A stretch of DNA of 51,242 bases, from IMG/VR virus record IMGVR_UViG_3300038825_000172, positions 1 to 51,242 of that record; one strand, written 5' to 3'. Both the position numbers and the translations under genes were made by a program. Positions 6,622 to 27,266 of the stretch are shown in pieces (within the stretch, counting starts at the first letter, position 1; each line of letters starts with the position of its first letter). Origin of the DNA: a virus. The notes under the pieces are model-generated. The model made no database searches. It worked only from the letters and a program-made list of their open reading frames with translations, and had not been told where the DNA came from.

Positions 6622-6623
6622 CA

Positions 6624-8715: not shown

Positions 8716-8728
8716 TCAAGGAGGTAAT

Positions 8729-8893: not shown

Positions 8894-8895
8894 AC

Positions 8896-9120: not shown

Positions 9121-9209
9121 TGAAAGACTGTGAACATAACAATGTATGGCACATTGATGAATATAATTTATCACCACCAACACCAATAACAAGGGAGATA
9201 GAACTATGA
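9120..9209 (+). CDS. Very small hypothetical protein, 29 aa
   Basis: ATG at 9120 directly follows GGAGGCATA and overlaps the previous stop. The end overlaps the next ATG (ATGA). Contains CEHNNVWHIDE, with one Cys and two His. The strong ribosome-binding site and double overlap argue that it is translated; function unknown. Confidence 0.45.
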   Translation: MKDCEHNNVWHIDEYNLSPPTPITREIEL

Positions 9210-9403
9210 ATATGCATTGGGCAGAAAGAAAAGAGCCACAAGCAACATTAAAAGATGATGCTACTTTCAAGGAAGTAAAACAATATTTACAAGACTTAAA
9301 AGATGAAGGACATGGTTGGCTATCAAGTGCAATGAAAGAAAGAATTAAAAATCCCATATTTGGTTTAACTAATTTAACAACAAAGGAGTTAGAAAAATTA
9401 TGA
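9206..9403 (+). CDS. Small hypothetical protein, 65 aa
   Basis: Preceded by GGGAGATAG. Helical with charged surface (TFKEVKQYLQDLKDEGHGWL). Its TGA overlaps the next start by four bases, so translation is probably coupled to the GP88-like gene. Confidence 0.6.
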   Translation: MNMHWAERKEPQATLKDDATFKEVKQYLQDLKDEGHGWLSSAMKERIKNPIFGLTNLTTKELEKL

Positions 9404-10107: not shown

Positions 10108-10115
10108 GAGGTAGT

Positions 10116-10328
10116 ATGACGAGTGAAATAGAACCTGATGTAGACATGATAAACGAACAAGCATTTGATAGAATACTTGACGATGTTTTAGAACAAGATA
10201 AGCAAGGCTTACTTGAAGAAGATATTAGAATCATCTGTGATGTCTATGGTTTACATGAAGACGATGACAAAGATGATATACTATTCTTTATTGCAGAAAG
10301 TTTATATGAGCATGGGGTGGTAGAATGA
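10116..10328 (+). CDS. Small acidic hypothetical protein, 70 aa
   Basis: Follows AGGAGGTAGT. Very acidic and helical (DMINEQAFDRILDDVLEQDK). Overlaps the next gene ATGA-style. No family recognised. Confidence 0.6.
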   Translation: MTSEIEPDVDMINEQAFDRILDDVLEQDKQGLLEEDIRIICDVYGLHEDDDKDDILFFIAESLYEHGVVE

Positions 10329-10519
10329 CACAATACGAAGATAAAGTTCAAGCCCAACGAGAAAAACTTGAACAAGAAAAAATAGATAACTCCGTTACAT
10401 CTATAGATTGTAGATATGAGAATGGTAAATGGACTAAGATGATTACTAAATATGGTAATGGTAAAGAAGTTACAGAGTATAACGACAAAAGAAAAAAGGA
10501 TAAGGTAGAATGGCAGTAA
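10325..10519 (+). CDS. Small hypothetical protein, 64 aa
   Basis: Coiled N-terminal half (EDKVQAQREKLEQEKID) and a beta-hairpin-like half (RYENGKWTKMITKYGNGKEV). Overlaps both neighbours. Function unknown. Confidence 0.55.
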   Translation: MTQYEDKVQAQREKLEQEKIDNSVTSIDCRYENGKWTKMITKYGNGKEVTEYNDKRKKDKVEWQ

Positions 10520-10668
10520 GAGGTAAGACAATACAAACTATAGAGCATGTTAAAAAGGTAACATCACAAGGCACAGGAGGTCGTTCTAGGGGTGTTAAAA
10601 TATCAACAGCTCACATGAATAAAAATAAACGCAGAAGTTATAAAGCATATAGAGGGCAAGGAAGATGA
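10510..10668 (+). CDS. Small basic protein, 52 aa
   Basis: ATG at 10510 within the end of the preceding gene after AAGGTAGA; TGA at 10666-10668. Basic C-terminus (MNKNKRRSYKAYRGQGR) and a Gly/Ser-rich centre (TSQGTGGRSRGVK), suggesting nucleic-acid binding. Overlaps the next gene ATGA-style. Confidence 0.5.
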   Translation: MAVRGKTIQTIEHVKKVTSQGTGGRSRGVKISTAHMNKNKRRSYKAYRGQGR

Positions 10669-10832
10669 TAACGATGGAAGAAATTATAGATGTAGCTAAT
10701 ATAGTTAAAGAAGAAGGAAAATGGATTGAAAAAAAATCTGAAGATGAATACAGGAAATTTTGCTTTGGAGTCAGTAGTATGGTAGGACACTTAGTAATGT
10801 TGGAGGAACAAGATTATGAGAGTATTAATTAA
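10665..10832 (+). CDS. Small acidic hypothetical protein, 55 aa
   Basis: ATG at 10665 follows AAGGAAG. Helical (MEEIIDVANIVKEEGKWIEK). It is one link in an unbroken chain of overlapping small genes. No family recognised. Confidence 0.5.
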   Translation: MITMEEIIDVANIVKEEGKWIEKKSEDEYRKFCFGVSSMVGHLVMLEEQDYESIN

Positions 10833-10983
10833 ATCACATGGTTGTTATAGCGTATTCTTCGATAGAATGTTTGGCTATAAAAGATACTATGTTGCATGGA
10901 GAAATGGAACACTTGAAACTTATTCAGGTTTATGGTATAATGAGAAACAAGTAATTAAATTAGCAGAGGATAGATTATGTTAG
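10816..10983 (+). CDS. Small basic hypothetical protein, 55 aa
   Basis: ATG at 10816 preceded by TTGGAGGAAC; TAG at 10981-10983. Beta-rich pattern with aromatic residues (YYVAWRNGTLETYSGLWY). It overlaps the previous gene by 17 bases and the next by seven. Confidence 0.5.
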   Translation: MRVLIKSHGCYSVFFDRMFGYKRYYVAWRNGTLETYSGLWYNEKQVIKLAEDRLC

Positions 10984-11084
10984 GAGATATTATAGGTTAT
11001 ATACTTCTTGGAAGTTTTGTAGGCTTTTGTTTAACAGGACTTGTAATTATTTTATTAGATGAAAAACATTGGAGGGATAAATGA
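10977..11084 (+). CDS. Single-span membrane peptide, 35 aa
   Basis: ATG at 10977, TGA at 11082-11084. About 25 uninterrupted hydrophobic residues (IIGYILLGSFVGFCLTGLVI) then DEKHWRDK. The C-terminal charge places that end in the cytoplasm by the positive-inside tendency. Function unknown. Confidence 0.5.
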   Translation: MLGDIIGYILLGSFVGFCLTGLVIILLDEKHWRDK

Positions 11085-11590
11085 ATATATTTTATTTTTA
11101 TGATAAAGATGAACTTGATAGTTTTAAAAAATCAGCACAAGCACAACCTGACAAGATGCTAGTGAAGATGCCTTTGGAAACAGCACAGATGTTATGCACA
11201 GCACATAGAGAGTTAGATGGCGATGAGTATGCTGATGAGGTAGGTTTATATAAAAGAGCTTACTGGAATCACCCATGCACAGTATGGGCAAGACAAACAA
11301 GTTCAAATTATATATGGTTATATGAACATTTTTTAGCTTTAGGTGAAGAATATAAATATAGATATGGTAGAGAACATGCAAGTATAATTAAACTTGCTAA
11401 ACCTTTATTATGCATACCTGAAAATATTAAAACAGATGCAATGACACCACCTGCACAGGCTATGCCTGATGAGTACAAAAATGATGACCCTGTCAAAGCA
11501 TATAGAGATTATTGTACCCATGAAAAACACTATGCTAAATGGGAAAAAGGTAGAACTAAACCAGAATGGTGGACATTGGAGGTCGCATGA
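11081..11590 (+). CDS. Conserved phage protein, pyrimidine-dimer glycosylase-like (tentative)
   Basis: 169 residues. Opens MNIFYFYDKD, then KMLVKMPLETAQMLCTAHRE, then YWNHPCTVWARQTSSNYIWL, ending with KGRTKPEWW. This is a widespread phage family in which LExAQMLxTAHR and NHPxxVWxR are the hallmarks. The NHP..W.R motif and the overall plan recall small pyrimidine-dimer DNA glycosylases related to T4 endonuclease V, but no enzymatic activity is established for this branch to my knowledge. A helix-rich DNA-repair role is the best guess. Overlaps both neighbours by four bases. Confidence 0.6.
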   Translation: MNIFYFYDKDELDSFKKSAQAQPDKMLVKMPLETAQMLCTAHRELDGDEYADEVGLYKRAYWNHPCTVWARQTSSNYIWLYEHFLALGEEYKYRYGREHASIIKLAKPLLCIPENIKTDAMTPPAQAMPDEYKNDDPVKAYRDYCTHEKHYAKWEKGRTKPEWWTLEVA

Positions 11591-11793
11591 AAGCTACACT
11601 AACACGAAAAGAATATAAAGATTTTAATATCTATGTTGATAATTTAAAATCAAAACATGATATAGATATACCCCATACTGTTGAAAAGATTGGGGATAAG
11701 TTTCTAGTAGAAATGCTAGATGATATTGATGTAAATAAATTAGATGATTTACTTGACATTGATGACAACTTGTTGTATAATGCAACACAATAA
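11587..11793 (+). CDS. Small acidic hypothetical protein, 68 aa
   Basis: The start at 11587 is chosen over 11566 because GGAGGTCGC precedes it and it overlaps the previous TGA in ATGA form. Basic N-terminus, acidic C-terminus with DDIDVNKLDDLLDIDDN. The last codons contain a perfect promoter for the following ssb gene. Confidence 0.55.
   Translation: MKATLTRKEYKDFNIYVDNLKSKHDIDIPHTVEKIGDKFLVEMLDDIDVNKLDDLLDIDDNLLYNATQ
11753..11781 (+). promoter_or_regulatory. Consensus promoter for the replication genes
   Basis: TTGACA (11753-11758), 17 bp, TATAAT (11776-11781). The spacer carries ACAAC-TT-GTTGT, a perfect 5-bp inverted repeat abutting the -10 box. It drives the single-stranded DNA-binding protein gene and the genes beyond. 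Confidence 0.8.
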
Positions 11794-11814
11794 CAACGCC
11801 AAAGGAGGTAATTT

Positions 11815-12267
11815 ATGGCAGTATTAGAAGGAAAAGCTTACTGGGCTTCAGTAACTACACCAAATACTACTTTTGAACCTGTATATACAGTAGACTTAGT
11901 AGTTGATGATGAAGTTGCAAATGATTTTGAAGCTCGTGGGTTTAGAATAAAAGACTTATCTATTAAAGATGAGCAAGGAACTCCAACATCTGTTGGGAGA
12001 GCTTTAACAATTAAAAGAAAAGTAAATGGTCCAAATGGCATGGTCAGAACTGCACCTAAACTTTTTGATAAAGAGAAAAATCTCATGGACGATGTCGTGG
12101 GTAATGGCTCTAGTGTAAAAGTTCAATACAACGAGTGGGAAACTGATAATAAGTTTGGAACATTTAAAGGTTTAGATTTTCAAGCTATGCAGGTTTTAGA
12201 TTTAGTTCCTTTAAAATCTCAAGATGGAGCAGAGCTAGACCCTTATGGGGATGGCGAGGAGTTTTAA
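11815..12267 (+). CDS. Single-stranded DNA-binding protein (T7 gp2.5-like)
   Basis: 150 residues. The N-terminus EGKAYWASVTTPNTTFEPVY followed by beta-rich sequence is typical of the phage OB-fold proteins recalled as gp2.5-like/DUF2815. The acidic C-terminal tail DPYGDGEEF ending in phenylalanine is the partner-binding tail of phage single-stranded DNA-binding proteins. It lies upstream of the primase-helicase and polymerase, the partners of that tail in T7. Own promoter at 11753 and ribosome-binding site AAAGGAGG. Confidence 0.75.
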   Translation: MAVLEGKAYWASVTTPNTTFEPVYTVDLVVDDEVANDFEARGFRIKDLSIKDEQGTPTSVGRALTIKRKVNGPNGMVRTAPKLFDKEKNLMDDVVGNGSSVKVQYNEWETDNKFGTFKGLDFQAMQVLDLVPLKSQDGAELDPYGDGEEF

Positions 12268-12268
12268 T

Positions 12269-12523
12269 ATGATTGTAACTATTAACAACAAAAATGGAAC
12301 AACAACTTATGATGTTTCAAAAGTTAGTAATGAAAGTATTAGAACTCAAGCTACTGTTATGATAAATAAAGTAGGTCAGCTTGAGGTTTTATTAGAGGCT
12401 TTAAACTTTACCAGTTCAACACACAGGGCAAATCTAGAAGCCCTCTTAAAAGATTGTCCTGAATCTCTGGTAGAAGTTGAAGAAGAAGAAGTCGCAGAAG
12501 AAACAAAAGATTCTGAAGACTAA
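12269..12523 (+). CDS. Small acidic hypothetical protein, 84 aa
   Basis: The start at 12269 is chosen because it lies one base after the ssb stop with GAGGAG upstream. An N-terminal beta strand region (MIVTINNKNGTTTYDV) and helices lead to a Glu-rich tail (VEVEEEEVAEETKDSED). Followed by a strong hairpin. Function unknown; it may bind replication proteins. Confidence 0.65.
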   Translation: MIVTINNKNGTTTYDVSKVSNESIRTQATVMINKVGQLEVLLEALNFTSSTHRANLEALLKDCPESLVEVEEEEVAEETKDSED

Positions 12524-12538
12524 TTCGTATCTCCAAGT

Positions 12539-12566
12539 GAGAGGTTAGACTTTTGTTTAGCCTCTC
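12539..12566 (+). terminator. Strong 12-bp hairpin between ssb operon and helicase
   Basis: GAGAGGTTAGAC (12539-12550), TTTT loop, GTTTAGCCTCTC (12555-12566): twelve consecutive pairs including two G-U, then CATTTTAATT. The weak T tract suggests a partial terminator or a transcript-stabilising 3' end that limits expression of the downstream polymerase genes relative to ssb. Confidence 0.65.
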
Positions 12567-12593
12567 CATTTTAATTCCAAATGAGGGTAAATT

Positions 12594-14243
12594 ATGGAAC
12601 AAAACAAATTTATAAAGTATCATGTATCATGCCATGCTTGTGGTAGTTCTGATGCTGTATCAGTAAACGAAGATGGCTCGGCTAAATGTTTTAGCTGTGG
12701 CAAATTTTATAGTAATTATGAAAACAAGGTAACACCAATGGAAAAATATACACAACCAACTACCATTGTAAATCCTCATGGAGGTATCTTTGGTAAACTA
12801 ACAGATAGAAATATCACAAAAGAAACAGCAGAAAAATATGGAGTGAAAGTTATATATGACTCGAATGGACAGATAGCACAACACTTATATCCTTTTTATA
12901 TAAACAATGAGCAATGTGCTACAAAAACTAGGTACATAAAAGATAAAAAGTTTTCTTTCAATGGGTCTTTGCAAGGCTCTGGATTGTTTGGACAAAACTT
13001 ATTTAAAGAAGGGGGTAAGTATCTTACTATAGTTGAAGGTGAGTGTGATGCTATGGCAGGGTATGAATTACTAGGTAGCAAGTGGGCTTGTGTAAGTATT
13101 AAAAGAGGAGCTGCAGCAGCAGTAAAAGATATAAAAGAAAGTTTAGAATATGTAGAAAGTTTTGACAATGTTGTTCTATGTTTTGACAAAGATAAGCAAG
13201 GACAGGAAGCTGCACAGAAAGTAGCTACAATTTTAAAACCGGGGAAAGCAAAGATTGTAACACTACCAAATGGTTACAAGGATGCAAACGATATGCTCAA
13301 ACAAGGTAAGCATCAAGAGTTTACAAGAGCATGGTGGGATGCAAAGGTATATACTCCTAGTGGTATCATAAAAGTATCAGATAAGAAAAAATCTTACTTA
13401 AATAGAGAAAGAAAAGAAAGCATACCTTTTCCTTGGGAAGGATTAAATAAAAAGTTATATGGTTTAAGGCAAGGGGAACTCATAACTCTTACTGGTGGCA
13501 CAGGACTTGGTAAGTCTAGTGTTACTAGAGAGCTAGAGCATTGGCTTATTAATCAGACAGAAGATAATGTAGGTGTGATTGCATTGGAAGAAGATTGGAA
13601 AAGAACAGTTGATGGCATACTTTCTATTGAGGCTAATGCAAGACTATACATTGACCAAGAACGAGAAAAGTTTGATAGAGATACTATCATGCAAATGTTT
13701 GATAAAGTATTTGAGGAGGATAGAGTATTTATTCATGCACACTTTGGCACTAACGAGATAGATGACATCTTTGCAAAGCTTAGATATCTTATAGTTGGTT
13801 GTGATTGTAAGTGGGTTGTGGTAGACCATTTACATATGCTTGTTAGTGCTGTGCATGAGGGAGATGAAAGAAGAGCTATAGATTCTATCATGACTAGACT
13901 TCGTAGCTTGGTTGAAGAAACAGGAGCAGGACTAATACTTGTATCACACTTACGTAGGGTGGATGGAAACAAAGGACACGAGAATGGTGTAGAAGTTTCT
14001 TTATCACATCTTCGTGGGTCAAATAGTATTGGACAATTAAGTGATTGTGTGATAGCATTAGAAAGAAATCAACAATCATCTGATGAACTTGAGGCAAGAA
14101 CAACAAAGCTTCGTGTCCTGAAATCAAGATACACAGGAGATGTAGGCATGGCAAGTTCATTGGTGTATGATAAAGATACAGGTAGATTAGCAGAAGAAGA
14201 CATGTCAGAATTTGAGGTAGAGGAAAATGGAATTAGTATTTGA
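12594..14243 (+). CDS. Bifunctional primase-helicase (T7 gp4-like)
   Basis: 549 residues. The N-terminal zinc ribbon has C13, C16, C32 and C35. A TOPRIM primase core follows: IVEGECDAMAG at 146-156 with the metal-binding Glu, then CFDKDKQGQE around 196-205 with Asp pair. The C-terminal RecA-like helicase starts with Walker A GGTGLGKSS at 301-309; ALEEDW, VVVDHLHML and the later SHLRGSNSIGQLSD match the SF4 (DnaB/T7 gp4) motifs. It primes and unwinds at the replication fork with the polymerase encoded next, whose gene overlaps it by 17 bases. Length and domain order are those of full-length phage enzymes. Confidence 0.95.
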   Translation: MEQNKFIKYHVSCHACGSSDAVSVNEDGSAKCFSCGKFYSNYENKVTPMEKYTQPTTIVNPHGGIFGKLTDRNITKETAEKYGVKVIYDSNGQIAQHLYPFYINNEQCATKTRYIKDKKFSFNGSLQGSGLFGQNLFKEGGKYLTIVEGECDAMAGYELLGSKWACVSIKRGAAAAVKDIKESLEYVESFDNVVLCFDKDKQGQEAAQKVATILKPGKAKIVTLPNGYKDANDMLKQGKHQEFTRAWWDAKVYTPSGIIKVSDKKKSYLNRERKESIPFPWEGLNKKLYGLRQGELITLTGGTGLGKSSVTRELEHWLINQTEDNVGVIALEEDWKRTVDGILSIEANARLYIDQEREKFDRDTIMQMFDKVFEEDRVFIHAHFGTNEIDDIFAKLRYLIVGCDCKWVVVDHLHMLVSAVHEGDERRAIDSIMTRLRSLVEETGAGLILVSHLRRVDGNKGHENGVEVSLSHLRGSNSIGQLSDCVIALERNQQSSDELEARTTKLRVLKSRYTGDVGMASSLVYDKDTGRLAEEDMSEFEVEENGISI

Positions 14244-17111: not shown

Positions 17112-17374
17112 ACGGAAGAAAAGCAAAACAAATAAGAAAAAAATCAAGACAATTAGTTGTTGATTGGTTACAAACTATGTTGGTAGAAGAAGAACAAAAA
17201 AAACTATCGATAGATAATTTTGAAAATTATTTACCAGAACAAACTCATGTTTATATGAATAAAACATTTAGGATTTCTGCATACACACCTAGATGGTTTG
17301 CACAAAGAATTAAAAAATCTAATAAAAGAGTAAAGGATATTACATGGCAGGATATAGAAAACCAAGAAAGATAA
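17108..17374 (+). CDS. Small basic conserved phage protein, 88 aa
   Basis: Begins MNGRKAKQIRKKSRQLVVDW and includes LPEQTHVYMNKTFRISAY then TPRWFAQRIKK. Short proteins with this RxIRKKS...LPxQTH pattern accompany replication genes in marine phages (recalled), without known function. It overlaps the resolvase gene by 31 bases. Confidence 0.6.
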   Translation: MNGRKAKQIRKKSRQLVVDWLQTMLVEEEQKKLSIDNFENYLPEQTHVYMNKTFRISAYTPRWFAQRIKKSNKRVKDITWQDIENQER

Positions 17375-17781
17375 GACCTAAAGAAAAAAATGTACCTAAA
17401 AAATATGATTCTAATTGGGAATATAAACTACACAATACAGTTTTAAAAGGTTGGGAACATCACAATCAAAACATAGATTATGTTGTTGAACATAAATACG
17501 AGCCTGACTTTGTTAAAGAAATTAATGGTAAAATAATATTACTAGAAGCAAAAGGAAGATTCTGGGATTACGCAGAGTATAGTAAATATATTTGGATAAG
17601 AGAAGCTCTTAAAGAAAAAGTAGAATCTTATGAATTAGTGTTTTTATTTTCTAGTCCACATTCTCCTATGCCACAAGCTAAAAGAAGAAAAGACGGAACT
17701 AAAAGAAGTCATGCAGAATGGGCAGAAACAAATAACTTTACATGGTATAGTGAAGAAACATTACCAGAGGAATGGAAATGA
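17344..17781 (+). CDS. Holliday junction resolvase, T7 endonuclease I-like
   Basis: 145 residues, closely following the plan of T7 gp3: start MAGYRKPRKIR, long helix, then YEPDFVKEINGKIILLEAKG carrying the PD...(E)xK catalytic residues, the following IWIREAL, a strand ELVFLFSS, and a C-terminal segment with HAEWAETNNF and LPEEW. T7 has MAGYGAKGIRK, YTPDFLLPNGIFVETKG, LIREQ, IVFSSS and IPAEW at matching positions. It resolves branched DNA before packaging and helps degrade host DNA. The length is normal for the family. Confidence 0.9.
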   Translation: MAGYRKPRKIRPKEKNVPKKYDSNWEYKLHNTVLKGWEHHNQNIDYVVEHKYEPDFVKEINGKIILLEAKGRFWDYAEYSKYIWIREALKEKVESYELVFLFSSPHSPMPQAKRRKDGTKRSHAEWAETNNFTWYSEETLPEEWK

Positions 17782-18068
17782 AATATAAATTCAATGAAGA
17801 TAATATCATACAACAGATACAAAGATATGTTGATGGTACATACGAAAGACATTATGCACAAGGAAAGTATCAGGCTACTGATATGATAATAGATGCAGGA
17901 CATGGAGAAGGTTTTTGTATGGGTAACATTATGAAGTATGCTATGAGGTGTGGTAAAAAAGAAGGCACAGATGCAGAAATGGACTTGCTAAAAATAATAC
18001 ATTATGCTATAATAGCAATAGCTTTAGAAGATACGAAGTATCATTTAGGAGAAGACAAAAATGGTTGA
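17778..18068 (+). CDS. DUF3310-family protein (T7 gp1.7-like)
   Basis: 96 residues from ATG 17778, preferred to 17772 because GAGG then lies at proper distance and ATGA overlap with the resolvase results. Contains HYAQGKYQATDMI, GNIMKYAMRCGKKEG and DLLKIIHYAI, the DUF3310 pattern (HY..gk.q..D, GN.iKY..R, D..K..HY). T7 gp1.7, a nucleotide kinase, belongs to the same group. It overlaps the start of nrdA, in keeping with a role in nucleotide supply. Confidence 0.75.
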   Translation: MKYKFNEDNIIQQIQRYVDGTYERHYAQGKYQATDMIIDAGHGEGFCMGNIMKYAMRCGKKEGTDAEMDLLKIIHYAIIAIALEDTKYHLGEDKNG

Positions 18069-19956
18069 TGATAAAATAGGAACCAAGCCTTACTTGGGAA
18101 TTGAAATAGACTACGATAAAGAAAAAGAGTTTGATAGGTTTAGTCTAGATACACTCAAAGATAGATATTTTTGGGAAGGAGAAACACATGCACAAGAAGC
18201 ACTCGCAAGAGCCTCAGTCTATGGGGCAACCTTCAAAGGTGAAACAGATTTTGAATTGGCTCAAAGACTTTACAACTACAGTTCCTCTCGTTGGTTCATG
18301 TTTAGCACTCCTATACTTAGTAACGGGGGAACCAGTCGTGGGCTACCTATCTCTTGTTTCCTTAATTATGTTCCTGACAGTCGCAATGGTTTATCTAATC
18401 ACTACGATGAGAACATTTGGTTGGCAAGTTCAGGTGGAGGCATTGGTGGATATTGGGGCGATATTAGGAGCAACGGTATTTCTACTACTCATGGCAGTCG
18501 TTCTACTGGTTCAATTCCATTCATGCATGTGGTAGATTCTCAGATGTTAGCCTTTAATCAAGGCACAACTAGAAGAGGTTCTTATGCTGCTTACATGGAT
18601 ATAAGTCACCCAGAGATAGAAGAGTTTATAAACATGCGTAAAGAATCTGGTGGAGATATTAATCGTAAATGTCTTAACTTACATAATGGAGTAAACATAA
18701 CAGATTCATTTTTAGATGCAGTAAAAAATGATGAAGACTGGAGATTGATTGACCCTAAAACTAACGAAGCTGTTAAGGTTATTAATGCTAGAGATTTATG
18801 GTGGCAGCTTATACATGCAAGAGCAGAAACAGGTGAGCCATATATGGTGAACATAGATACTTGTAACGAAGCTTTACCTAAACAACAAAAAGATTTAGGT
18901 TTAAAAATTAGACAAAGCAACTTATGTTCTGAAATAACTTTACCAACTAACGAAGAAAGAACAGCAGTATGTTGTTTGTCTTCTGTAAACTTAGAACACT
19001 TTGATACTTGGTCTAAAGATGATAATTTTATATTAGATTTAATAACAATGTTAGACAATGTAATAGAACACTATATTGAAAACGCAGTAGACACATCACA
19101 ACTAGGAGGATATAATGCAAATTACAATAGGTTTTCTAAATATATTAAAGAAGACAAAGAAGGATATACTAAATCTGCCTATTCGGCGTATAGAGAAAGA
19201 AGTCTCGGCTTGGGTGCAATGGGGTTTCATGCATATCTACAATCTAGGAACATACCTTTCGAGGGAATTTTTGCAACTGGGTTTAATCACACAGCTTTCA
19301 CATACATTAAATCAAAAGCTTTACAAGCTACTAAAGAGTTGGCTATCCAAAGGGGCGAAGCTCCTGACATACATGGTTCAAGTCGTAGAAACGCTAACCT
19401 ACTTGCTGTTGCTCCTAACGCTAGTAGTGGGATTATATGTAGTGGCACTTCTCCTAGTATCGAGCCTTATAGAGCTAACTGTTATACTCATAAAACTTTA
19501 TCAGGAAGCTATCAAGTTAAAAACAAATTTCTCGAAAAAATTTTTAAATCCAAAGGATTGAAAGTTAAAGAGTTAGAAAATATTTGGAAAGACATCGCAA
19601 GTAAAGATGGGTCAGTACAACACTTAGATATACTTACTGATGAAGAAAAAGAAATATTTAAAACAGCAAATGAAATAAATCAAATCTGGATTGTAGAACA
19701 CGCATATCAAAGACAACAATTTATATGTCAAGCACAATCCGTAAACTTATTCTTTACCTTACCAAAGGCAACTGAAGGTCAAGAGATACACGATGAATAC
19801 ATGCAGTATGTTAATGATGTTCATTGGTATGGTATGAATAAACTTAAATCACTCTACTACTTTAGGTCTAACGCAGCTAGAAATGTAGAGAATGTAAACA
19901 TTAAAGTTCCAAGAATCAAGTTAGATGATGTGGAATGTATAGCCTGTGAGGGATAA
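18061..19956 (+). CDS. nrdA: Ribonucleotide reductase, large subunit (class I)
   Basis: 631 residues. Key motifs: LPISCFLNYVPDS with one of the active-site cysteines, SGGGIGGYWGDIRS, RQSNLCSEITLP (N-x-C-x-E radical site), AVCCLSSVNLEHF with the second redox cysteine, and a C-terminal ECIACEG tail for reductant exchange. The N-terminal ATP-cone allosteric domain of cellular NrdA is absent, as in many phages, so overall activity may escape dATP inhibition. With NrdB (20156-21130) it makes deoxynucleotides from host ribonucleotides. It overlaps the DUF3310 gene by eight bases. Confidence 0.95.
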   Translation: MVDDKIGTKPYLGIEIDYDKEKEFDRFSLDTLKDRYFWEGETHAQEALARASVYGATFKGETDFELAQRLYNYSSSRWFMFSTPILSNGGTSRGLPISCFLNYVPDSRNGLSNHYDENIWLASSGGGIGGYWGDIRSNGISTTHGSRSTGSIPFMHVVDSQMLAFNQGTTRRGSYAAYMDISHPEIEEFINMRKESGGDINRKCLNLHNGVNITDSFLDAVKNDEDWRLIDPKTNEAVKVINARDLWWQLIHARAETGEPYMVNIDTCNEALPKQQKDLGLKIRQSNLCSEITLPTNEERTAVCCLSSVNLEHFDTWSKDDNFILDLITMLDNVIEHYIENAVDTSQLGGYNANYNRFSKYIKEDKEGYTKSAYSAYRERSLGLGAMGFHAYLQSRNIPFEGIFATGFNHTAFTYIKSKALQATKELAIQRGEAPDIHGSSRRNANLLAVAPNASSGIICSGTSPSIEPYRANCYTHKTLSGSYQVKNKFLEKIFKSKGLKVKELENIWKDIASKDGSVQHLDILTDEEKEIFKTANEINQIWIVEHAYQRQQFICQAQSVNLFFTLPKATEGQEIHDEYMQYVNDVHWYGMNKLKSLYYFRSNAARNVENVNIKVPRIKLDDVECIACEG

Positions 19957-20175
19957 ATGATAAAAGAAAAACTATATGATGCTTTGTATGATAGATATAA
20001 AGCTGAACAATCAGAAGCTTTATGCAATCTTCAAATGTATTTCAGAGAGGGTGTTGGTGTAGCTGACCATCCTAATACAATAGATACTGTAGCTAAATTA
20101 TTTGAAGAGTATGCAGAAGCAACAGAACATTTAAAATTATTAAAGGAGAATAGATATGAGTTTGTTGGGCAATAG
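19957..20175 (+). CDS. Small hypothetical protein between nrdA and nrdB, 72 aa
   Basis: Starts directly after the nrdA stop and overlaps nrdB by 20 bases. Helical (LYDALYDRYKAEQSEALCNL, then VAKLFEEYAEATEHLKLL). Conserved position inside the reductase operon suggests a link with it, but no thioredoxin/glutaredoxin CxxC motif is present. Function unknown. Confidence 0.65.
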   Translation: MIKEKLYDALYDRYKAEQSEALCNLQMYFREGVGVADHPNTIDTVAKLFEEYAEATEHLKLLKENRYEFVGQ

Positions 20176-21130
20176 AGATTATTATAAACCATTTGAATAT
20201 CCCTGGATGTTTGATTACTATGTATTACAAAATCAAATGCATTGGATGCCAGAATCTGTACCATTACATACAGATGTAAAAGACTGGCAAGAACTTACAG
20301 ACAAAGAAAAGAATTTACTTACACAAATATTTAGATTGTTTACTCAATCAGATGTAGATGTAGCTTCAGGATATATAGATAAATATATGCCTGTATTTAA
20401 AAAACCAGAAGCAAGAATGATGATGTCATCTTTTGCTAACATGGAATCAATACATCAACATGCCTACAGCTTACTACTTGATACTGTTGGTATGCCAGAA
20501 GTAGAATACAAAGCTTTTGCTGACTATGAAGAGATGGCAAACAAGCATGACTATGTTGGTAACTTTAAACCTACAAAAGCTAAGAAAGAAACTATAGCTA
20601 AAACTCTTGCTGTTTATTCTGCTTTTACAGAAGGACTACAACTCTTTAGTAGCTTTGCAATCTTATTAAATTTTCCTAGATTTGGAAAGATGAAAGGTAT
20701 GGGTCAGATAGTTACTTATTCTATTCGTGATGAGTCAATGCATGTAGAAGCTATGACTAAACTCTTTAGAGAATTTATACAAGAGAACATAGAAATATGG
20801 ACAGATGATTTTAAGAAAGAACTATATGAAATATGTAGGCAAATGGTTACACTTGAAGATAAATTTTTAGACCTTGTGTTTGAGATGGGAGATTTACAAG
20901 GACTAACTAAGAAAGATATGTATGCTTACAATAGATACATAGCCGATAGAAGATTATTACAACTTGGTCTTAAAACTAACTATGACCAACGTGAGAATCC
21001 TCTAGGTTGGATTGATGAAGTCATGGGTGTTGAACATCAAAACTTTTTTGAAGGTAGAGCAACAACATACATGAAAGCAGGATTGAGAGGAAGACAAGAC
21101 AACATAACCTTTAGTGATTTAAATGAGTAG
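20156..21130 (+). CDS. nrdB: Ribonucleotide reductase, small subunit
   Basis: 324 residues of ferritin-like fold. Metal and radical residues are intact: D in FTQSDVDVASGY, E and H plus the radical tyrosine in NMESIHQHAYSLL (E-x-x-H-x-x-x-Y), E in AFTEGLQLF, and E/H in IRDESMHVEAM. It therefore appears to be a classical di-iron tyrosyl-radical subunit. The ribosome-binding site AAAGGAG lies within the preceding small gene. Confidence 0.95.
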   Translation: MSLLGNRDYYKPFEYPWMFDYYVLQNQMHWMPESVPLHTDVKDWQELTDKEKNLLTQIFRLFTQSDVDVASGYIDKYMPVFKKPEARMMMSSFANMESIHQHAYSLLLDTVGMPEVEYKAFADYEEMANKHDYVGNFKPTKAKKETIAKTLAVYSAFTEGLQLFSSFAILLNFPRFGKMKGMGQIVTYSIRDESMHVEAMTKLFREFIQENIEIWTDDFKKELYEICRQMVTLEDKFLDLVFEMGDLQGLTKKDMYAYNRYIADRRLLQLGLKTNYDQRENPLGWIDEVMGVEHQNFFEGRATTYMKAGLRGRQDNITFSDLNE

Positions 21131-21371
21131 ACTAAGTGATAAAAAAGATGCTGCTTGGTTTTTAAAGTGGGTATCTAGTTTTATAATTGTAACTGCTATG
21201 TCTTTACGAGGCATAGAAAATATGCAAGTTTATGATTTAACTTTATCTATAATAGGAGTAACCGGTTGGTTAGGTGTTGGTATGTTATGGAAAGATAGAG
21301 CATTAATTATTTTAAATGCTGTTGGTCTTGTTTTTTTATTTAGAAACTTATTAATAGAATATATATTATGA
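21123..21371 (+). CDS. Small membrane protein, 82 aa
   Basis: Two or three hydrophobic segments: FLKWVSSFIIVTAMSL, LTLSIIGVTGWLGVGML and ALIILNAVGLVFLF. Overlaps nrdB by eight bases and the next gene ATGA-style. The family resembles short integral membrane proteins seen in marine phages; function unknown. Its place just before the cyclase gene could mean an envelope role. Confidence 0.65.
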   Translation: MSRLSDKKDAAWFLKWVSSFIIVTAMSLRGIENMQVYDLTLSIIGVTGWLGVGMLWKDRALIILNAVGLVFLFRNLLIEYIL

Positions 21372-21589
21372 AAACAAAAGAAGCAAAATTATTACAATAT
21401 ACTTTACTATACGACAGGTCAGGTAAATTAGTTACAGAAAGAATATCAACAGATATTAAAAAACTAAAACCTTATTTTAGTAAAGAAGAGTATTCAATAC
21501 TAACAACTCTTATGAGAGAATGTACTCAAAAATTAGATGAGATACATAATCATATAGAATGTAATTTAGATGCAAGGGTAATGACATAA
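21368..21589 (+). CDS. Small hypothetical protein, 73 aa
   Basis: Opens MKTKEAKLLQYTLLYDRSGK, then helices ending in IHNHIECNLDARVMT. No family recognised. Both ends overlap neighbours (ATGA at its start, one base with the cyclase start), so it is translationally linked to the cyclase. Confidence 0.6.
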   Translation: MKTKEAKLLQYTLLYDRSGKLVTERISTDIKKLKPYFSKEEYSILTTLMRECTQKLDEIHNHIECNLDARVMT

Positions 21590-23397
21590 TGAAATGGGCT
21601 TGTTTATTATTAAGTTTATTAACATTACCTTTATTATTTAATGTTACACCTTTAGAAACAATAAGATTAAAAACCTTTGATGCTTTTGTACACACTCCTG
21701 AACCATCAGGCAACTTTGTAATCTTAAATATTACTGAAGAAGATGTAGAGAAAAAAAGAGGTTATCCTTTTCCTAGACAAGATTTAGCACAAATACAAGC
21801 AGATTTAATTAACAAAGGTGCTTTAGGTGTAGGGTGGGTTATAGTTTTCCCACAACCAGATAGGTTTGGAGGAGATAAAATATTCGCAGAAATTTTAAGT
21901 TATTCTTCTAGTGTATTAGCTATGCCAGAGTTTAACAATGGAAAATATCCTAAGACACATGGTACAGTTATATTAGGACCAGATGTAAACTTACCGATAG
22001 CTAAAGGATTTATACAAAATATACCAGAGCTTCAAGAAGTTTCTTCTCAAGGTGCTGTGTCTGCTCCTGTAGATGTAGACAATCTTGTAAGAAGAATACC
22101 TTTACTACAAAAAACTCCAGATGGTTGGGTAGCTTCTTTTGGAACTGAAGTATTGAAAACTTTAGTAGATGCTAATACTTATCAAATAAAAACAAATGAA
22201 AACGGAATTGAACAAATAAGAGTTAGAGGACTTGAGCCAATATCAACAGATAGTCTTGGTCGTAAATGGATTAGTTGGGTTGATACACCACAAACCACAC
22301 TAGAAGAAATGGATGTTGAAGGTAAGTTTGTATTTGTAGGTGTTACTGCGTCAGGTGTAATGCCCACTTTAGCCACGCCAAATGGGTTATTAGAACCACA
22401 CAAGATACAGGCTGCCCTTGCAGAAAGTATTTTGATTGACTCTCCTTTCATACCAGACTATAGATTGTTTGTAGAACTACTTATATTATGTGTCTCTGGA
22501 TTACTCATAGCCTTTCTAATAACAAGATTAGGTATTACATGGGGTATGTTATCAGCAGGAACTTTAATGTTCTCAGTAGGCTCTCTTGGTTATTACTTTA
22601 TATCTATCGGGTATCTTATAGATGTCACATGGAGTATGACATGTATGACACTTATTGCCCTACAACAATTCTATTTAAACTTTAGAACACAATTTAAATT
22701 AAGACAACAAATCAAAAAACAATTTGGTACTTACCTTTCTCCTGATATGGTAGCTATGCTACAAAAGAATCCAGAGCTTTTAAAGCTAGGTGGAGAAAGA
22801 AAAGAAATGACATTCTTATTTACTGACATCATGGGCTTTACTCCTGTGTCAGAAGTATTTAAAAATAATGATGACCCTGAAGGTTTAGTAGAACTTATTA
22901 ATACTTATCTTGATAAGATGACAAAGATTATACTAGCTAATGGTGGAACTATTGACAAGTATATGGGTGATTGTATCATGGCATTTTGGAATGCTCCTCT
23001 TCCTTGTGAGAATCATGCAGAGTTAGCTATTAAATCTGCAATAGAAATAGAAGAAGCAACCTTAGAACTTAATAAACAATTTAAAGAACAAGGTTTAGAC
23101 TTACCACCTATCAATGTAGGAACTGGTGTCAACTCTGGAACTTGTATTGTTGGCAACATGGGAAGCGAAACAAGGTTTGATTACTCTGTTGTTGGGGATG
23201 CTGTAAATTTATCAGCTAGATTAGAAGCTACTGCCGGTAGAAATGATTATAAACAATGGAAGATAATTATATCTGAGTATACTAAAGACTTAGCAGGTGA
23301 TTGTTTTGATTATGAAAAGATAGATAGTATATTAGTAAAAGGTAAATCAGAACCAATAACAATTTATTCTCCTAAACCCTTGACAAATTTAAAATAA
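21589..23397 (+). CDS. CHASE2-domain adenylate cyclase (class III), membrane bound
   Basis: 602 residues. One N-terminal membrane helix (3-18), a periplasmic CHASE2 sensor (about 25-290), three membrane helices (292-312, 316-338, 343-360), a short helical linker and a C-terminal class III cyclase (about 405-595). Catalytic residues are complete: metal-binding D413 (FTDIMGFT) and D461 (KYMGDC), substrate-selecting K457 and D531 (FDYSVVGD), transition-state N540 and R544 (VNLSARLE). The K/D pair indicates ATP, hence cAMP. It would sense an envelope signal and raise host cAMP. It is last but one in the early arm; a FecR-domain protein, a partner often seen beside CHASE2 cyclases in bacteria (recalled), is encoded opposite at 24002. 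Codon use matches its neighbours. Confidence 0.9.
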   Translation: MKWACLLLSLLTLPLLFNVTPLETIRLKTFDAFVHTPEPSGNFVILNITEEDVEKKRGYPFPRQDLAQIQADLINKGALGVGWVIVFPQPDRFGGDKIFAEILSYSSSVLAMPEFNNGKYPKTHGTVILGPDVNLPIAKGFIQNIPELQEVSSQGAVSAPVDVDNLVRRIPLLQKTPDGWVASFGTEVLKTLVDANTYQIKTNENGIEQIRVRGLEPISTDSLGRKWISWVDTPQTTLEEMDVEGKFVFVGVTASGVMPTLATPNGLLEPHKIQAALAESILIDSPFIPDYRLFVELLILCVSGLLIAFLITRLGITWGMLSAGTLMFSVGSLGYYFISIGYLIDVTWSMTCMTLIALQQFYLNFRTQFKLRQQIKKQFGTYLSPDMVAMLQKNPELLKLGGERKEMTFLFTDIMGFTPVSEVFKNNDDPEGLVELINTYLDKMTKIILANGGTIDKYMGDCIMAFWNAPLPCENHAELAIKSAIEIEEATLELNKQFKEQGLDLPPINVGTGVNSGTCIVGNMGSETRFDYSVVGDAVNLSARLEATAGRNDYKQWKIIISEYTKDLAGDCFDYEKIDSILVKGKSEPITIYSPKPLTNLK

Positions 23398-23407
23398 GTA
23401 TTATAAT
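23380..23407 (+). promoter_or_regulatory. Promoter for hsp20
   Basis: TTGACA (23380-23385), 16 bp, TATAAT (23402-23407), with the -35 box inside the last cyclase codons. It allows hsp20 to be expressed independently of the cyclase operon; the start site is near 23414. Confidence 0.75.
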
Positions 23408-23440
23408 ATAAGAAGAGTGTGCGAAAGGTCGGCACTCAAT

Positions 23441-23461
23441 AACTTGCTTTATAAAGGAGTT
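23441..23461 (+). promoter_or_regulatory. Hairpin over the hsp20 ribosome-binding site (possible RNA thermometer)
   Basis: AACTT (23441-23445) can pair with GAGTT (23457-23461, one G-U), then after a bulged G CTT (23447-23449) pairs with AAG (23454-23456) around a TATA loop. The Shine-Dalgarno AAGGAG (23454-23459) is fully within the stem, and the weak A-U pairs would open on warming. Another small stem, GTGC/GCAC, lies upstream at about 23419-23434. Small heat-shock genes are classic thermometer targets; this is inference from pairing. Confidence 0.4.
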
Positions 23462-23464
23462 AAT

Positions 23465-23878
23465 ATGACAAACATAAAAGCATTTGGGCAATTCAGTCCG
23501 TTCTCAGTAGGGTTTGATGAAATGTTTAATACATTACAAAGAGCATCAATACCTCAATCAAACTATCCACCTTATAATATTCTTAAAAAAGGTGATACAT
23601 ATTATATTGAAATAGCAATGGCAGGATTTAATAAGTCTGATATTGATATTGAAATAGAAGATAATACTTTAACTGTCTCTGCATGTTATGGAGATAGAGA
23701 AGATGATATAGAATTTGTTCACAAAGGAATTTCTGAACGAGAATTTTATAAATCATTTGCTCTAGCTGAGTATGTTGAAGTTAAAAAAGCTAGTGTTGCT
23801 GATGGAATATTACTTATTGAACTAAATAAAAACATTCCAGATGAGCAAAAGCCTAAAAAAATTAAAATTTCTAGGTAA
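23465..23878 (+). CDS. Small heat-shock protein, IbpA/Hsp20 type
   Basis: 137 residues from ATG 23465 (AAAGGAG upstream; the longer frame from 23417 lacks one). The alpha-crystallin domain is complete: YPPYNILKKGDTYYIEIAMA, GFNKSDIDIEIEDNTLTVS, then HKGISEREFYKSFALAEYVE and ADGILLIELNKNIPD, and it ends KPKKIKISR. This follows bacterial IbpA closely, including the short N-terminal GFDEMFNTL. It would hold unfolding proteins during infection, possibly including secreted amyloid-like product from the facing cluster. It has its own promoter and a possible thermometer. Confidence 0.9.
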   Translation: MTNIKAFGQFSPFSVGFDEMFNTLQRASIPQSNYPPYNILKKGDTYYIEIAMAGFNKSDIDIEIEDNTLTVSACYGDREDDIEFVHKGISEREFYKSFALAEYVEVKKASVADGILLIELNKNIPDEQKPKKIKISR

Positions 23879-24001: not shown

Positions 24002-25108
24002 CTAATCCCCTTGTTTTATCTTAATAGTAGAAGAACCACCACCATTAACTACAATTTGTGTACTCTTTCCATTTTGCACAAGGATAACAGTATAAGAACC
24101 TGTCTTATCTAAATCTAATCTTACTGTATCTTCTAATGATTTTAAAAATGTTACGACATTATCTGTAGTAAAAGTATTAACTTGTGTGTTAGAATCAAAA
24201 CCCATAGTTGTTCCTTTTAAATCAAAGTCAGCTTTCAATAAAGTTTCTGTTTGGTCTAACTCATTTACATCTTGTATAATATCTAACAAGTCTTCAAGAA
24301 AGTTTACATCTAAATAATTAATATCTAGTTCTGTAAATTCTAACTCATCCTCTGCTAGATAGTCTACATCTAAATCATCAAAGTCAAGGAAGTTAGCATC
24401 AAGAACATTAGAACTGCTACTTCCATCTTCTCCCTGTACATTTATATTCTCCTTTGGTGGATTAACTATTAACATATTATCTATTAACTCTAAAGTTAAA
24501 TCTAATATAACCGGTTTAGTAGGTTCTAGTTCAAACATAGAAACTGTAGTAGCTTGATAGGGCTTGTTAAGAATTACTTCTCCTGCACCTGTTGCTACTA
24601 ATATTTCTCCACTAGGAGTTCCATCTGCTTTTGGTAATAATATAATCAACGATTCGCCTATCTCATTTACTGTAATTGTAAAATCAGTTCCACGAATTGA
24701 CACATTAGCACTTGGCGTACTAATAGAAATGTTTTCTTTGTTTATATTATTTAACTTGCCAGTAATAAACCTTGCAGTTCCACTAGCAAAATTCAAAGCC
24801 ATTGTAGATTTTGAAGGATTAGGGTCATAGATAAATTCATCTATAACTAATTGTGAATGCTCTGTTAATCTTACTTGACTATTATTAACAAAGGTTATAC
24901 CTATTCTACCATTAGAAGTTTCAACATTGTCAAAACTTTCTATACCAAAAGATAAAGCAGCATCGTAAGTTTCATCTCTTACAATCCTGCTGTTACCTTT
25001 AAGTTCTGTTACGCTTCCAATACTAGCATCCGACTGTTGTGCCACCATCGTTTTGGATAACACAGACAGTACCATTATTGCCAGTTGAAAGTATCTTGAG
25101 CCAATCAT
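24002..25108 (-). CDS. FecR-domain secreted protein with acidic leucine-pentad repeats
   Basis: 368 residues. Signal peptide about 1-24 (LAIMVLSVLSKTMVAQQ). The FecR domain (about 30-185) shows GNSRIVR..., FDNVETSNGRIGITFVNN, VRLTEHSQLVIDEFIYDP and ANVSIRGTDFTITVN, typical of periplasmic FecR proteins that stand apart from iron-sigma systems. Residues 236-276 are eight tandem five-residue units starting with Leu (LDANF, LDFDD, LDVDY ... LDVNF). A beta-rich C-terminus ends VVNGGGSSTIKIKQGD. Last gene of the late arm; its signal-peptide coding part overlaps the curlin-like gene by 86 bases. Possible partner of the CHASE2 cyclase or of the curli-like fibre. Confidence 0.8.
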   Translation of the reverse strand: MIGSRYFQLAIMVLSVLSKTMVAQQSDASIGSVTELKGNSRIVRDETYDAALSFGIESFDNVETSNGRIGITFVNNSQVRLTEHSQLVIDEFIYDPNPSKSTMALNFASGTARFITGKLNNINKENISISTPSANVSIRGTDFTITVNEIGESLIILLPKADGTPSGEILVATGAGEVILNKPYQATTVSMFELEPTKPVILDLTLELIDNMLIVNPPKENINVQGEDGSSSSNVLDANFLDFDDLDVDYLAEDELEFTELDINYLDVNFLEDLLDIIQDVNELDQTETLLKADFDLKGTTMGFDSNTQVNTFTTDNVVTFLKSLEDTVRLDLDKTGSYTVILVQNGKSTQIVVNGGGSSTIKIKQGD

Positions 25109-25739
25109 TGTCTAATGTACTAAGTTGTTGTATGTTAAAAGTTCTAGAGTTACCTGTTTGGTCTAAGTAAAAATAACCACCAGCATAACCACTACCTGTA
25201 AAAGTAACATTGTTACTATCTCCATCAACATCAACATAAGAAGTACCACTATCGTAGTTTATATCAAAATCAAATGTATTACTACTACCATTAATAATCC
25301 AGTCTAAATCTGTATTACTAGCCATAGCAGTTGTACCTACATCTAATGTAAAAGTATTACTATCTCCAGTAGTATCTACATTAAAATTAGAACTATCAAT
25401 ACCATAAGTATTGGTTGGGTCTGCTTGTATAGTAAATGTATTACTGTCTCCATCAAATTCAAAAAATCCTGTAATATTATCTCCTAGTATATCACCAAGA
25501 AATTTATTACTATCTCCTATTTGATTAATATCTAGAGTTAGATTTAATCCATCTAAATCTAGGGCAGTTAAAGTTCCTGCAACAGAATTTAATCCACCTA
25601 TTATATTTCCAGAACCAAGTTGTTCTAAATCTATATTAGCAGTAGCACCTGATTGGTCAATGTATATTTCGTTATCAGCCCCGTATGTTGTCAACGCAGT
25701 CAACATCACAACTAGGCTCATCAATTTTAATTGTTTCAT
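25023..25739 (-). CDS. Curlin-repeat (CsgA/CsgB-like) secreted protein
   Basis: 238 residues. Signal peptide about 1-20 (MSLVVMLTALTTYGA). The mature part is built of about nine units with a G-x-x-N core between hydrophobic strands: DQSGATANI, EQLGSGNII, NQIGDSNKF, EFDGDSNTF, DTTGDSNTF, IINGSSNTF, DVDGDSNNV, DQTGNSRTF and LSTGNNGTV. This is the strand-turn-strand unit of curlins (QxGxxN), which stack as a beta-solenoid amyloid. Two Cys end the protein (VCVIQ...VGC). It lies directly behind csgG and overlaps it by 65 bases. It is the likely substrate of that channel; polymerisation is inferred. Confidence 0.8.
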   Translation of the reverse strand: MKQLKLMSLVVMLTALTTYGADNEIYIDQSGATANIDLEQLGSGNIIGGLNSVAGTLTALDLDGLNLTLDINQIGDSNKFLGDILGDNITGFFEFDGDSNTFTIQADPTNTYGIDSSNFNVDTTGDSNTFTLDVGTTAMASNTDLDWIINGSSNTFDFDINYDSGTSYVDVDGDSNNVTFTGSGYAGGYFYLDQTGNSRTFNIQQLSTLDNDWLKILSTGNNGTVCVIQNDGGTTVGC

Positions 25740-26532
25740 ATTCCCAATACCCTCTCTCTATTCCTGTTTCTATTAAGTTAAATACTCCAGCTTCTATTGC
25801 CTTTTGCAAAGCTATAGAACCCACCTCGTTCTCAGCTACTCCTCCTTCTATTTCTACAAGTTCTGTACCTTGTTCATAGAATTTAAAGACATCTTGAGAA
25901 ACGCTTGTAGATAAAACATTTTTAGAAACTGTAGTCTCTACTAATATTTCACCTGTTGATACAGAAACTAATCGTAATGATATAGTTACTACATCTTCTC
26001 GGTATTGTTTACTTGTACCTATTCCTAAATACCTAGCACCAATACCACCAGATTCTACATTTGTGTCATAACTAATTACTCCACCTTGTATTATAAGACC
26101 AGCAAATAATAAAGGCTGGAGCTTTTGGTCTTGCTCAAAGTTTTCTCTGGTTGACCGAATAAGTTGTCGTTCTTTTGTAAGATTATCTAATCCTACTCGT
26201 TCAACAACTCTAAAAAATTCTCCGTTAGCAGCATGTTTTAAAGCTCTTATAAGTAATGCTTCAGGAGCTTGTGTGACTGCTGTACTAAACAAAGCAAAGC
26301 TACTGTTACTTTTTCTTTGTCCTGTTAAGTCTTGAAAGCTATCTCTATATACTGCTATTATTGGTTTTCTTTTAGCAGGAGGTACTTCAGCTAATGCAAC
26401 TGATTGTAAATCTAAAATATTGGCAGGTTCTGTATCTCTTGTTAAAGATAAATCTTTATTTTGATTTAAAACTGCACAGCCACTAAAAGGTAAAGCTACC
26501 AATAGGCAAAGAAATAGTCGTTGTATTTCCAT
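25675..26532 (-). CDS. csgG: CsgG-like outer-membrane curli secretion channel
   Basis: 285 residues against 277 in E. coli. A lipoprotein signal ends at the lipobox FSGC (Cys18). Strong family signatures: FSTAVTQAPEALLIRALKHA, VVERVGLDNLTKERQLIRST, SGGIGARYLGIGTSKQY and LRLVSVSTGEILVETTVSK, ending with GIERGYWEYE. CsgG forms a nine-subunit lipoprotein barrel. In the constriction loop the E. coli Phe56 has a match (ALFSTAV) but Asn55 aligns with Leu and Tyr51 with Ser, so the pore lining differs. Encoded after csgF and before the curlin-like gene. No CsgE or CsgC homologue is visible. Confidence 0.93.
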   Translation of the reverse strand: MEIQRLFLCLLVALPFSGCAVLNQNKDLSLTRDTEPANILDLQSVALAEVPPAKRKPIIAVYRDSFQDLTGQRKSNSSFALFSTAVTQAPEALLIRALKHAANGEFFRVVERVGLDNLTKERQLIRSTRENFEQDQKLQPLLFAGLIIQGGVISYDTNVESGGIGARYLGIGTSKQYREDVVTISLRLVSVSTGEILVETTVSKNVLSTSVSQDVFKFYEQGTELVEIEGGVAENEVGSIALQKAIEAGVFNLIETGIERGYWEYETIKIDEPSCDVDCVDNIRG

Positions 26533-26977
26533 CTGAATCCGTAATTTTCAAAGTTATTATTCCATCGACAACACTATATTCGATTGTATTGCCCTCTAAA
26601 GTTAATACACCACTATCGCTAGGAGTTTCTCCAAATAAGTTTTCTACTAATTGTCTTGATAGCTGTGCATATATTCTAGACTCTAAGTTTCTTATAAACC
26701 TTGCAAGTGTTGTGTTTTCTTTGTCTCTTTTAATCTGGTCCTGTAAAGCTTTGAGTTCTTCTTTGATACTCATCTTTCTATTAAACTCTTGATTTTCTAT
26801 AGTAAGATAATGTGCAGATGTTCCCATACCACTAAAGCTAGGGTTTTTAAATTGATGTACCATCTCATCTGATATACTATTAACAGACCAAAACATAATT
26901 AACATGGACCAAAAGAACATACAAAACTTACAGTTCCTATCAGTTTTTTTACTTTTAAATGTTGGTTTTATTTTCAT
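26483..26977 (-). CDS. csgF: CsgF-like curli assembly factor
   Basis: 164 residues from ATG 26977; a start at 27007 (174 residues) is also open. The shorter one follows the previous stop by one base. After a hydrophobic signal (FFWSMLIMFWSVNSIS) the mature N-terminus is MVHQFKNPSFSG, matching the FxFxNPxFGG segment by which CsgF plugs into the CsgG pore. The C-terminus (EYSVVDGIITLKITDSDGN, then TTTISLP) matches the CsgF tail. Between them lies a longer charged helix than in E. coli (EELKALQDQIKRDKENTTLA). It overlaps csgG by 50 bases. CsgF links channel and nucleator on the cell surface. Confidence 0.88.
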   Translation of the reverse strand: MKIKPTFKSKKTDRNCKFCMFFWSMLIMFWSVNSISDEMVHQFKNPSFSGMGTSAHYLTIENQEFNRKMSIKEELKALQDQIKRDKENTTLARFIRNLESRIYAQLSRQLVENLFGETPSDSGVLTLEGNTIEYSVVDGIITLKITDSDGNTTTISLPIGSFTF

Positions 26978-26978
26978 A

Positions 26979-27266
26979 TTAATCTTTTCGTTGGTCTTTT
27001 TTTCCATCTGCTCTTGCTAACCTATCTACATCTATAGTTACTCCCATAGCTGTTCTTACCATAGAGTCTATTCTTATCATATCATTATCCATTTGTCTTA
27101 CTCTGTCTATTAATGCAACTATCATACTATGTTGCGTATCTAATTTTTTATGTACATCTGCTATTAAAGCATTAAATAATTTATATACCATCCAACCAGC
27201 AGCAACTGCAAAGGCTGCAGGAATACCTACAGACTCTAATATTGTCATAAAATCTCTAGTGTCCAT
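26979..27266 (-). CDS. Holin-like membrane protein, one span plus coiled coil
   Basis: 95 residues: a membrane helix (VGIPAAFAVAAGWMVYKLF), then a long amphipathic helix with heptad spacing (LIDRVRQMDNDMIRIDSM) and a charged tail KKDQRKD. This plan is common among small phage lysis and membrane-anchor proteins. It lies between the three-span protein and csgF, overlapping both at its ends. The holin role is inferred from topology and position at the end of the late operon. Confidence 0.55.
   Translation of the reverse strand: MDTRDFMTILESVGIPAAFAVAAGWMVYKLFNALIADVHKKLDTQHSMIVALIDRVRQMDNDMIRIDSMVRTAMGVTIDVDRLARADGKKDQRKD

Follow-up and report, generated by a model that had tools for sequence, protein, structure and literature searches.

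What would a bacteriophage gain from a membrane-bound sensor enzyme of the kind that bacteria use to make cAMP? This question is raised by a gene in IMG/VR record IMGVR_UViG_3300038825_000172, the whole of which, at 51,242 nucleotides, is referred to here as the window. The gene encodes a CHASE2 domain followed by a class III nucleotide cyclase domain (Table 1). A preliminary description of the window had proposed that the phage gains control of cAMP signalling in its host, perhaps to shift carbon metabolism or to switch on envelope genes, and had called such a gene unusual in a phage. The neighbours and relatives of the cyclase suggest a different role, possibly as the input-sensing part of a phage-encoded secretion module.

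Domain architecture and predicted structure

The open reading frame given in the preliminary description is borne out, as are its two domains. The CHASE2 match (E-value 7.2e-27) and the Guanylate_cyc match (PF00211, E-value 1.2e-18) both lie far over the Pfam cut-offs. Nearly the whole protein also matches PHROG 35576, a family without an assigned function. An AlphaFold model, for which 36 viral and bacterial sequences were used, reaches a mean pLDDT of 89.4 and contains helices at residues 2–16, 292–339 and 347–379. Hydropathy and the model agree on an N-terminal hydrophobic helix, the CHASE2 domain and then membrane helices. The earlier count of three following helices fits, with the qualification that the long modelled helix covers two of the three expected passes and does not resolve them as separate spans.

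Structural comparison of the model, which covers mainly residues 355–599, finds the catalytic fold of known class III cyclases. The closest match is Pseudomonas aeruginosa CyaB (3r5g; Z 26.6, 2.0 Å over 190 residues), followed by Spirulina CyaC (Z 25.5) and Synechocystis Cya2 (2w01; Z 25.2). The phage enzyme shares this fold with Cya2 and CyaB at 37–39% identity and Z scores of 25–27. That the protein is a membrane-bound CHASE2 sensor enzyme predicted to make cAMP is well supported by the sequence, the model and the selection on the gene.

Table 1. Features of the cyclase locus and its surroundings, in window coordinates.
Feature	Position	Strand	Basis or remark
Ribonucleotide reductase large and small subunit genes (nrdA, nrdB)	18061..21130	+	Upstream, on the cyclase strand
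Two small genes (DUF6552 membrane protein; 73-aa protein)	21123..21589	+	Overlap into the cyclase start
CHASE2-class III cyclase gene, predicted adenylate cyclase (602 aa)	21589..23397	+	ORF, Pfam, alignment, model
CHASE2 periplasmic sensor domain, residues 15–305	21631..22503	+	Pfam; extends into the first membrane helix after it
Membrane-helix region, about residues 291–366	22459..22686	+	Hydropathy and model
Class III catalytic domain, residues 405–591	22801..23361	+	Asp413, Lys457, Asp461, Ser533, Asn540, Arg544
Hsp20 gene	23417..23878	+	Shares the inversion with the cyclase
FecR-domain protein (hydrophobic segment at the N-terminus), probably a partner in the periplasm	24002..25108	-	Adjoins the cyclase in every testable contig (55/55)
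Candidate fibre protein with curlin repeats (CsgA/B-like)	25023..25739	-	Kin to HTVC008M/Melnitz curlin-associated proteins; weak CsgB match
CsgG outer-membrane curli pore protein	25675..26532	-	2e-50
CsgF curli pore partner	26483..27007	-	1.8e-18
Small one-helix membrane protein at the cassette head (95 aa, PHROG 18771)	26979..27266	-	Profile match

Active site and substrate

Conservation of the active site was counted over 77 aligned full-length viral proteins. All 77 have the metal-binding pair Asp413/Asp461, Lys457 and Arg544. Asn540, which forms the catalytic pair with Arg544, is kept in 76 of the proteins, the sole exception being that of phage Melnitz. Both pairs had been claimed from the single sequence and hold across the group. 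The claimed Lys/Asp ATP-selecting pair holds by half: Lys457 is correct, but the site homologous to the Asp is occupied by Ser533, and Asp531 lies two residues upstream of it. Ser533 stands three residues before Gly536 and aligns with the Thr of CyaB (DYTIIG) and CyaC (DFTAIG). This position is Ser in 69 of the viral proteins, Thr in seven and Asp in one. The base-selecting pair Lys457/Ser533 is therefore of the class IIIb type (Lys with Ser or Thr), as opposed to the Lys and Asp of class IIIa.

In Cya2, which makes cGMP, the base-selecting residue is Glu, whereas the phage cyclase has Lys there. A change of this Glu to Lys turns Cya2, a CHASE2-regulated guanylate cyclase, into an adenylate cyclase (PMC5995499). 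Because Lys457 occupies the same site, ATP is indicated as the substrate, and we infer that the phage enzyme would use ATP and would work as a homodimer. From the sequence and the model the protein is very probably an active adenylate cyclase. The Melnitz cyclase (L083, 7917–9965) has Ser for Asn540 and Asp for Ser533 and sits on a long catalytic branch, its activity may have been changed or lost, or its specificity changed.

Against close relatives of the same catalytic lineage, dN/dS is 0.03–0.16 in the linker and catalytic part and higher, at 0.13–0.23, in the CHASE2 part. Since at least 594 viral-contig stretches encode relatives of the cyclase and its catalytic dN/dS is low, the gene is more than a chance passenger. 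A non-catalytic role, for example as a dead enzyme that excludes other phages, is rejected on the catalytic conservation together with the low dN/dS.

Genome and position of the cyclase

The window begins and ends with an identical 99-base terminal direct repeat (1–99 and 51144–51242), which makes it probable that the record is a closed genome of about 51.1 kb. The DNA polymerases closest to that of the window come from Pelagibacter phages HTVC115P, HTVC103P and HTVC104P (51–53%). By the polymerase and by the same junction from ribonucleotide reductase (RNR) to Hsp20, the layout is that of an HTVC023P/HTVC103P-type pelagipodovirus. The gene order matches HTVC115P: RNR shares a strand with the replication genes, and the structural genes are on the opposite strand.

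The cyclase lies where the two strands converge. It follows immediately on nrdA-nrdB and two small genes and precedes Hsp20, and its start overlaps the preceding stop by one base. The earlier placement within a phage replication operon is thus right as to position, but it leaves out the curli/FecR cassette that adjoins on the other strand. The DUF6552 small membrane protein (21123–21371, +) has no known function and is found near the cyclase in several relatives too. A perfect sigma-70 consensus (TTGACA-16-TATAAT; 23380–23407, +) is present within the 3' end of the cyclase, ahead of Hsp20. This site aside, promoter and terminator counts around the cyclase are not above those of shuffled sequences. 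Hsp20 probably starts at the downstream ATG at 23465 rather than at the GTG at 23417. Further upstream on the plus strand are a pyrimidine-dimer glycosylase match (11081–11590) and a phage endonuclease I match (17344–17781), the latter near but under the cut-off.

Association with a curli/FecR cassette

Just past Hsp20, and convergent with the cyclase, is a curli/type VIII secretion (T8SS) cassette (24002–27007, -) consisting of FecR, a curlin-repeat protein, CsgG and CsgF. The structure model of the FecR protein is of low confidence (pLDDT 52). The cassette is headed by a protein of PHROG 18771, a family that occurs at cassette heads in one or two copies of roughly 90–120 aa with one helix. 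No kinase domain was found in a search of these head proteins. The head gene of the pelagiphage T8SS module has been called a histidine kinase (PMC9599517); this is probably the PHROG 18771 one-helix protein under another name.

Curli genes alone were described in pelagiphages earlier (PMC7029224), and a curli module with FecR and adenylate cyclase was reported in 2022 in HTVC023P-type podoviruses and HTVC008M-type pelagimyophages, where the cyclase is frequent though not constant (PMC9599517). The window resembles this module in having CsgF, CsgG, the curlin repeat, FecR and the cyclase side by side. It differs in that the cyclase is constant in the podoviral sample studied here, and in that the window and 20 CsgG-selected contigs have the cyclase, with Hsp20 where present, inverted relative to FecR and onto the RNR strand. 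The window belongs to this inverted group. Its cyclase is a further copy of a phage gene whose existence and association with curli are already published (PMC9599517), and the unusualness claimed for it was too strong. New with respect to the literature are the inversion, the exchange of sensor and output, the tracking of FecR and CsgG by the sensor half, and the bacterial gene context.

The linkage is complete wherever it could be counted. Of the fetched contigs, all 55 that extend 2 kb or more past the cyclase towards the cassette have FecR beside it, and all 53 that extend 3.5 kb have CsgG. When contigs were selected by CsgG instead, the cyclase was present in 36 of the 36 with room for it. 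The contigs sampled are those most closely related to the window, and the counts describe that group rather than all phages. Among annotated phages, full-length homologues are found in HTVC008M, which infects Pelagibacter, and in four isolates of Melnitz, which infects Methylophilales. In both phages the cyclase is at the end of a CsgF-CsgG-curlin-FecR cassette. The HTVC008M protein (AGE60353, adenylate/guanylyl cyclase) is 41.6% identical to that of the window and the Melnitz protein (QZI94833) is 32.4% identical. Both genes are codirectional with FecR, unlike the gene in the window. HTVC115P has Hsp20 near the junction with no annotated cyclase or curli genes there, and a protein search found no cyclase homologue in this phage.

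Exchange of sensor and catalytic halves

The two halves of the cyclase have different histories. In contigs L017, L019, L021, L022, L033 and L050 the CHASE2 domain is 71–83% identical to that of the window, and the catalytic domain only about 42–46%. The diverged catalytic domains keep their catalytic residues and belong to a separate clade of nine phages. The reverse is seen in L063–L065, where CHASE2 is only about 30% identical to the window and the catalytic domain about 80%. Comparison of the DNA places the switch point inside the gene, at about residues 417–422, and the Hsp20 side is homologous again. Sensor and catalytic halves have been exchanged independently between phages, with the active sites intact. 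Assembly chimaeras are an unlikely source of the swapped catalytic domains, as nine contigs share that catalytic clade. For one pair, L002 and L017, the CHASE2 domains are identical in protein sequence and the DNA is 97% identical from FecR into the cyclase, after which the catalytic domains are wholly different. The exchange in this pair may be very recent, or it may be an artefact of chimaeric assembly.

Distances between CHASE2 domains correlate with those between FecR proteins (rho 0.71) and CsgG proteins (0.65), whereas the catalytic domain gives 0.11 and 0.19 respectively. The correlation of CHASE2 with FecR after removing CsgG is 0.40. The permutation test on distances leaves shared ancestry and gene linkage in as confounders, and the tracking of FecR divergence by CHASE2 supports, but does not prove, a partnership of the sensor with FecR.

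Bacterial CHASE2 cyclases

Alphaproteobacterial CHASE2 cyclases, of which Sinorhizobium meliloti CyaD1, CyaD2 and CyaK are representatives, have the same domain order as the phage protein at about 30–36% identity, and many have a FecR neighbour. The gene surroundings of 80 bacterial homologues, most of them from Alphaproteobacteria, contain 26 FecR matches. Of these, 24 are no more than 3.5 kb from the cyclase, and at 13 loci FecR is directly upstream on the same strand. The majority of the 80 are without a FecR neighbour. CsgG or CsgF neighbours were found at none of these 80 loci, which in this respect differ from the phages. Besides FecR, the bacterial partners are secretion parts (HlyD, TolC-type proteins) and cAMP-phosphodiesterase genes.

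In one small marine alphaproteobacterium (L185) the cyclase is part of a type I secretion operon (3151–14149). It is flanked on one side by an HlyD protein that carries a cyclic-nucleotide-binding domain and on the other by a small cyclic-nucleotide-binding protein, and close by are a TolC-type protein and an ABC exporter of the C39 type. Loci L186 and L187 have a similar pattern of open reading frames and cyclic-nucleotide-binding matches. Direct control of secretion by cAMP, with no transcription factor, is possible in such small-genome marine alphaproteobacteria.

Clusters of FecR and CHASE2 cyclases have been described in Campylobacterota (PMC9239204) and in S. meliloti (PMC5498481), and FecR occurs with a CHASE2 kinase in the control of Burkholderia biofilms (PMC5192318). 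The S. meliloti CHASE2 cyclases respond to an outside protein by way of an outer-membrane beta-barrel (PMC13001267). The FecR gene smc02177, a cyclase neighbour in S. meliloti, is dispensable for signal perception (PMC5498481), FecR may therefore act downstream.

Proposed function

We propose the following mechanism. During infection the phage would supply an outer-membrane pore of CsgG and CsgF, together with the curlin-repeat protein and, in the periplasm, the FecR-domain protein. How this export apparatus stands (pore assembled, fibre passing, or an outside ligand) would be signalled to the CHASE2 domain, most likely by FecR, and the membrane helices would then alter the catalytic dimer so that ATP is converted to cAMP. 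The cAMP would act on host cyclic-nucleotide-binding proteins and so adjust the envelope or the gene expression of the infected cell. None of the 30 phage records searched encodes a cyclic-nucleotide-binding protein, so any cAMP target must be the host's. FecR as relay, the direction of signalling and the host target are the parts that we infer. Several observations count against this mechanism. In the group of the window the cyclase is on the strand opposite FecR, so the two are not co-transcribed. The dispensability of smc02177 in S. meliloti, the bacterial loci without a FecR neighbour and the lack of a cyclic-nucleotide-binding protein in the phage records weigh in the same direction, and clumping was not seen with Melnitz (PMC9004378).

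We consider the chances about even that the protein is a homodimeric class IIIb-type adenylate cyclase with CHASE2 as the input of the phage curli/FecR module, and take the same balanced position on FecR or the export apparatus being what the cyclase reads. More tentatively, and with somewhat more doubt than confidence, the CHASE2 sensor made by the phage may monitor the phage's own curli pore and fibre through FecR, with interchangeable cyclase outputs, and cAMP would then be feedback on phage-encoded secretion in hosts without curli of their own.

Four other roles have to be weighed against this one. The cyclase might be a free-standing takeover gene which floods the host with cAMP and redirects carbon metabolism, its curli neighbours being incidental. 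Its predicted activity agrees with this, as does its position on the nucleotide-metabolism strand of the window and not on the curli strand. Simple flooding would not need a conserved periplasmic sensor, however, and the linkage to FecR and CsgG holds in both orientations, so we regard this role as unlikely. The carbon-metabolism part of the earlier proposal is accordingly without specific support, the gene being fixed in a curli/FecR cassette and its bacterial kin often lying near FecR or secretion genes; the part concerning envelope genes is closer to the evidence. A role in the timing of lysis, in which the CsgG pore is a gated hole in the outer membrane and the cyclase senses a late state of the envelope to time release, appears less probable still. 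A proposal of this kind linking the pore and lysis has been published for Melnitz (PMC9004378), and the small membrane protein at the head of the Melnitz cassette has weak similarity to a holin profile (1e-4). The corresponding protein of the window gave no holin match in the profile comparison, its cyclase is on the strand of the replication genes, and the FecR and curlin-repeat proteins would be left unexplained.

Class IIIb cyclases are bicarbonate-responsive. The Lys and Ser/Thr pair is typical of this class, and with CyaB and CyaC as the nearest folds the phage enzyme might respond mainly to cytoplasmic bicarbonate or CO2, CHASE2 serving as a mere membrane anchor. We judge this improbable, as CHASE2 is under clear purifying selection and its divergence tracks that of FecR and CsgG. 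Most improbable of all is a defence-related role, in which the cyclic nucleotide would disrupt anti-phage signalling of the Pycsar type or have its origin in it. PADLOC PycC profiles do match the cyclase (best 7e-23), but the match is confined to the common class III domain and so to the level of the superfamily. No Pycsar effector was seen among the scanned neighbours (curli, FecR, Hsp20 and RNR genes), and the partners of the cyclase in the cassette are curli and FecR genes.

If the proposed coupling of the cyclase to the curli/FecR module is correct, phages of the most abundant ocean bacteria would bring into the cell both a fibre-secretion pore and a second-messenger sensor that watches the pore. 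Infected SAR11 cells would gain a signalling route that is perhaps otherwise absent. FecR would also be a concrete and testable partner for CHASE2, a sensor domain that is common in bacteria but for which few inputs are known. The natural domain-swapped chimaeras described here would provide material for studying CHASE2.
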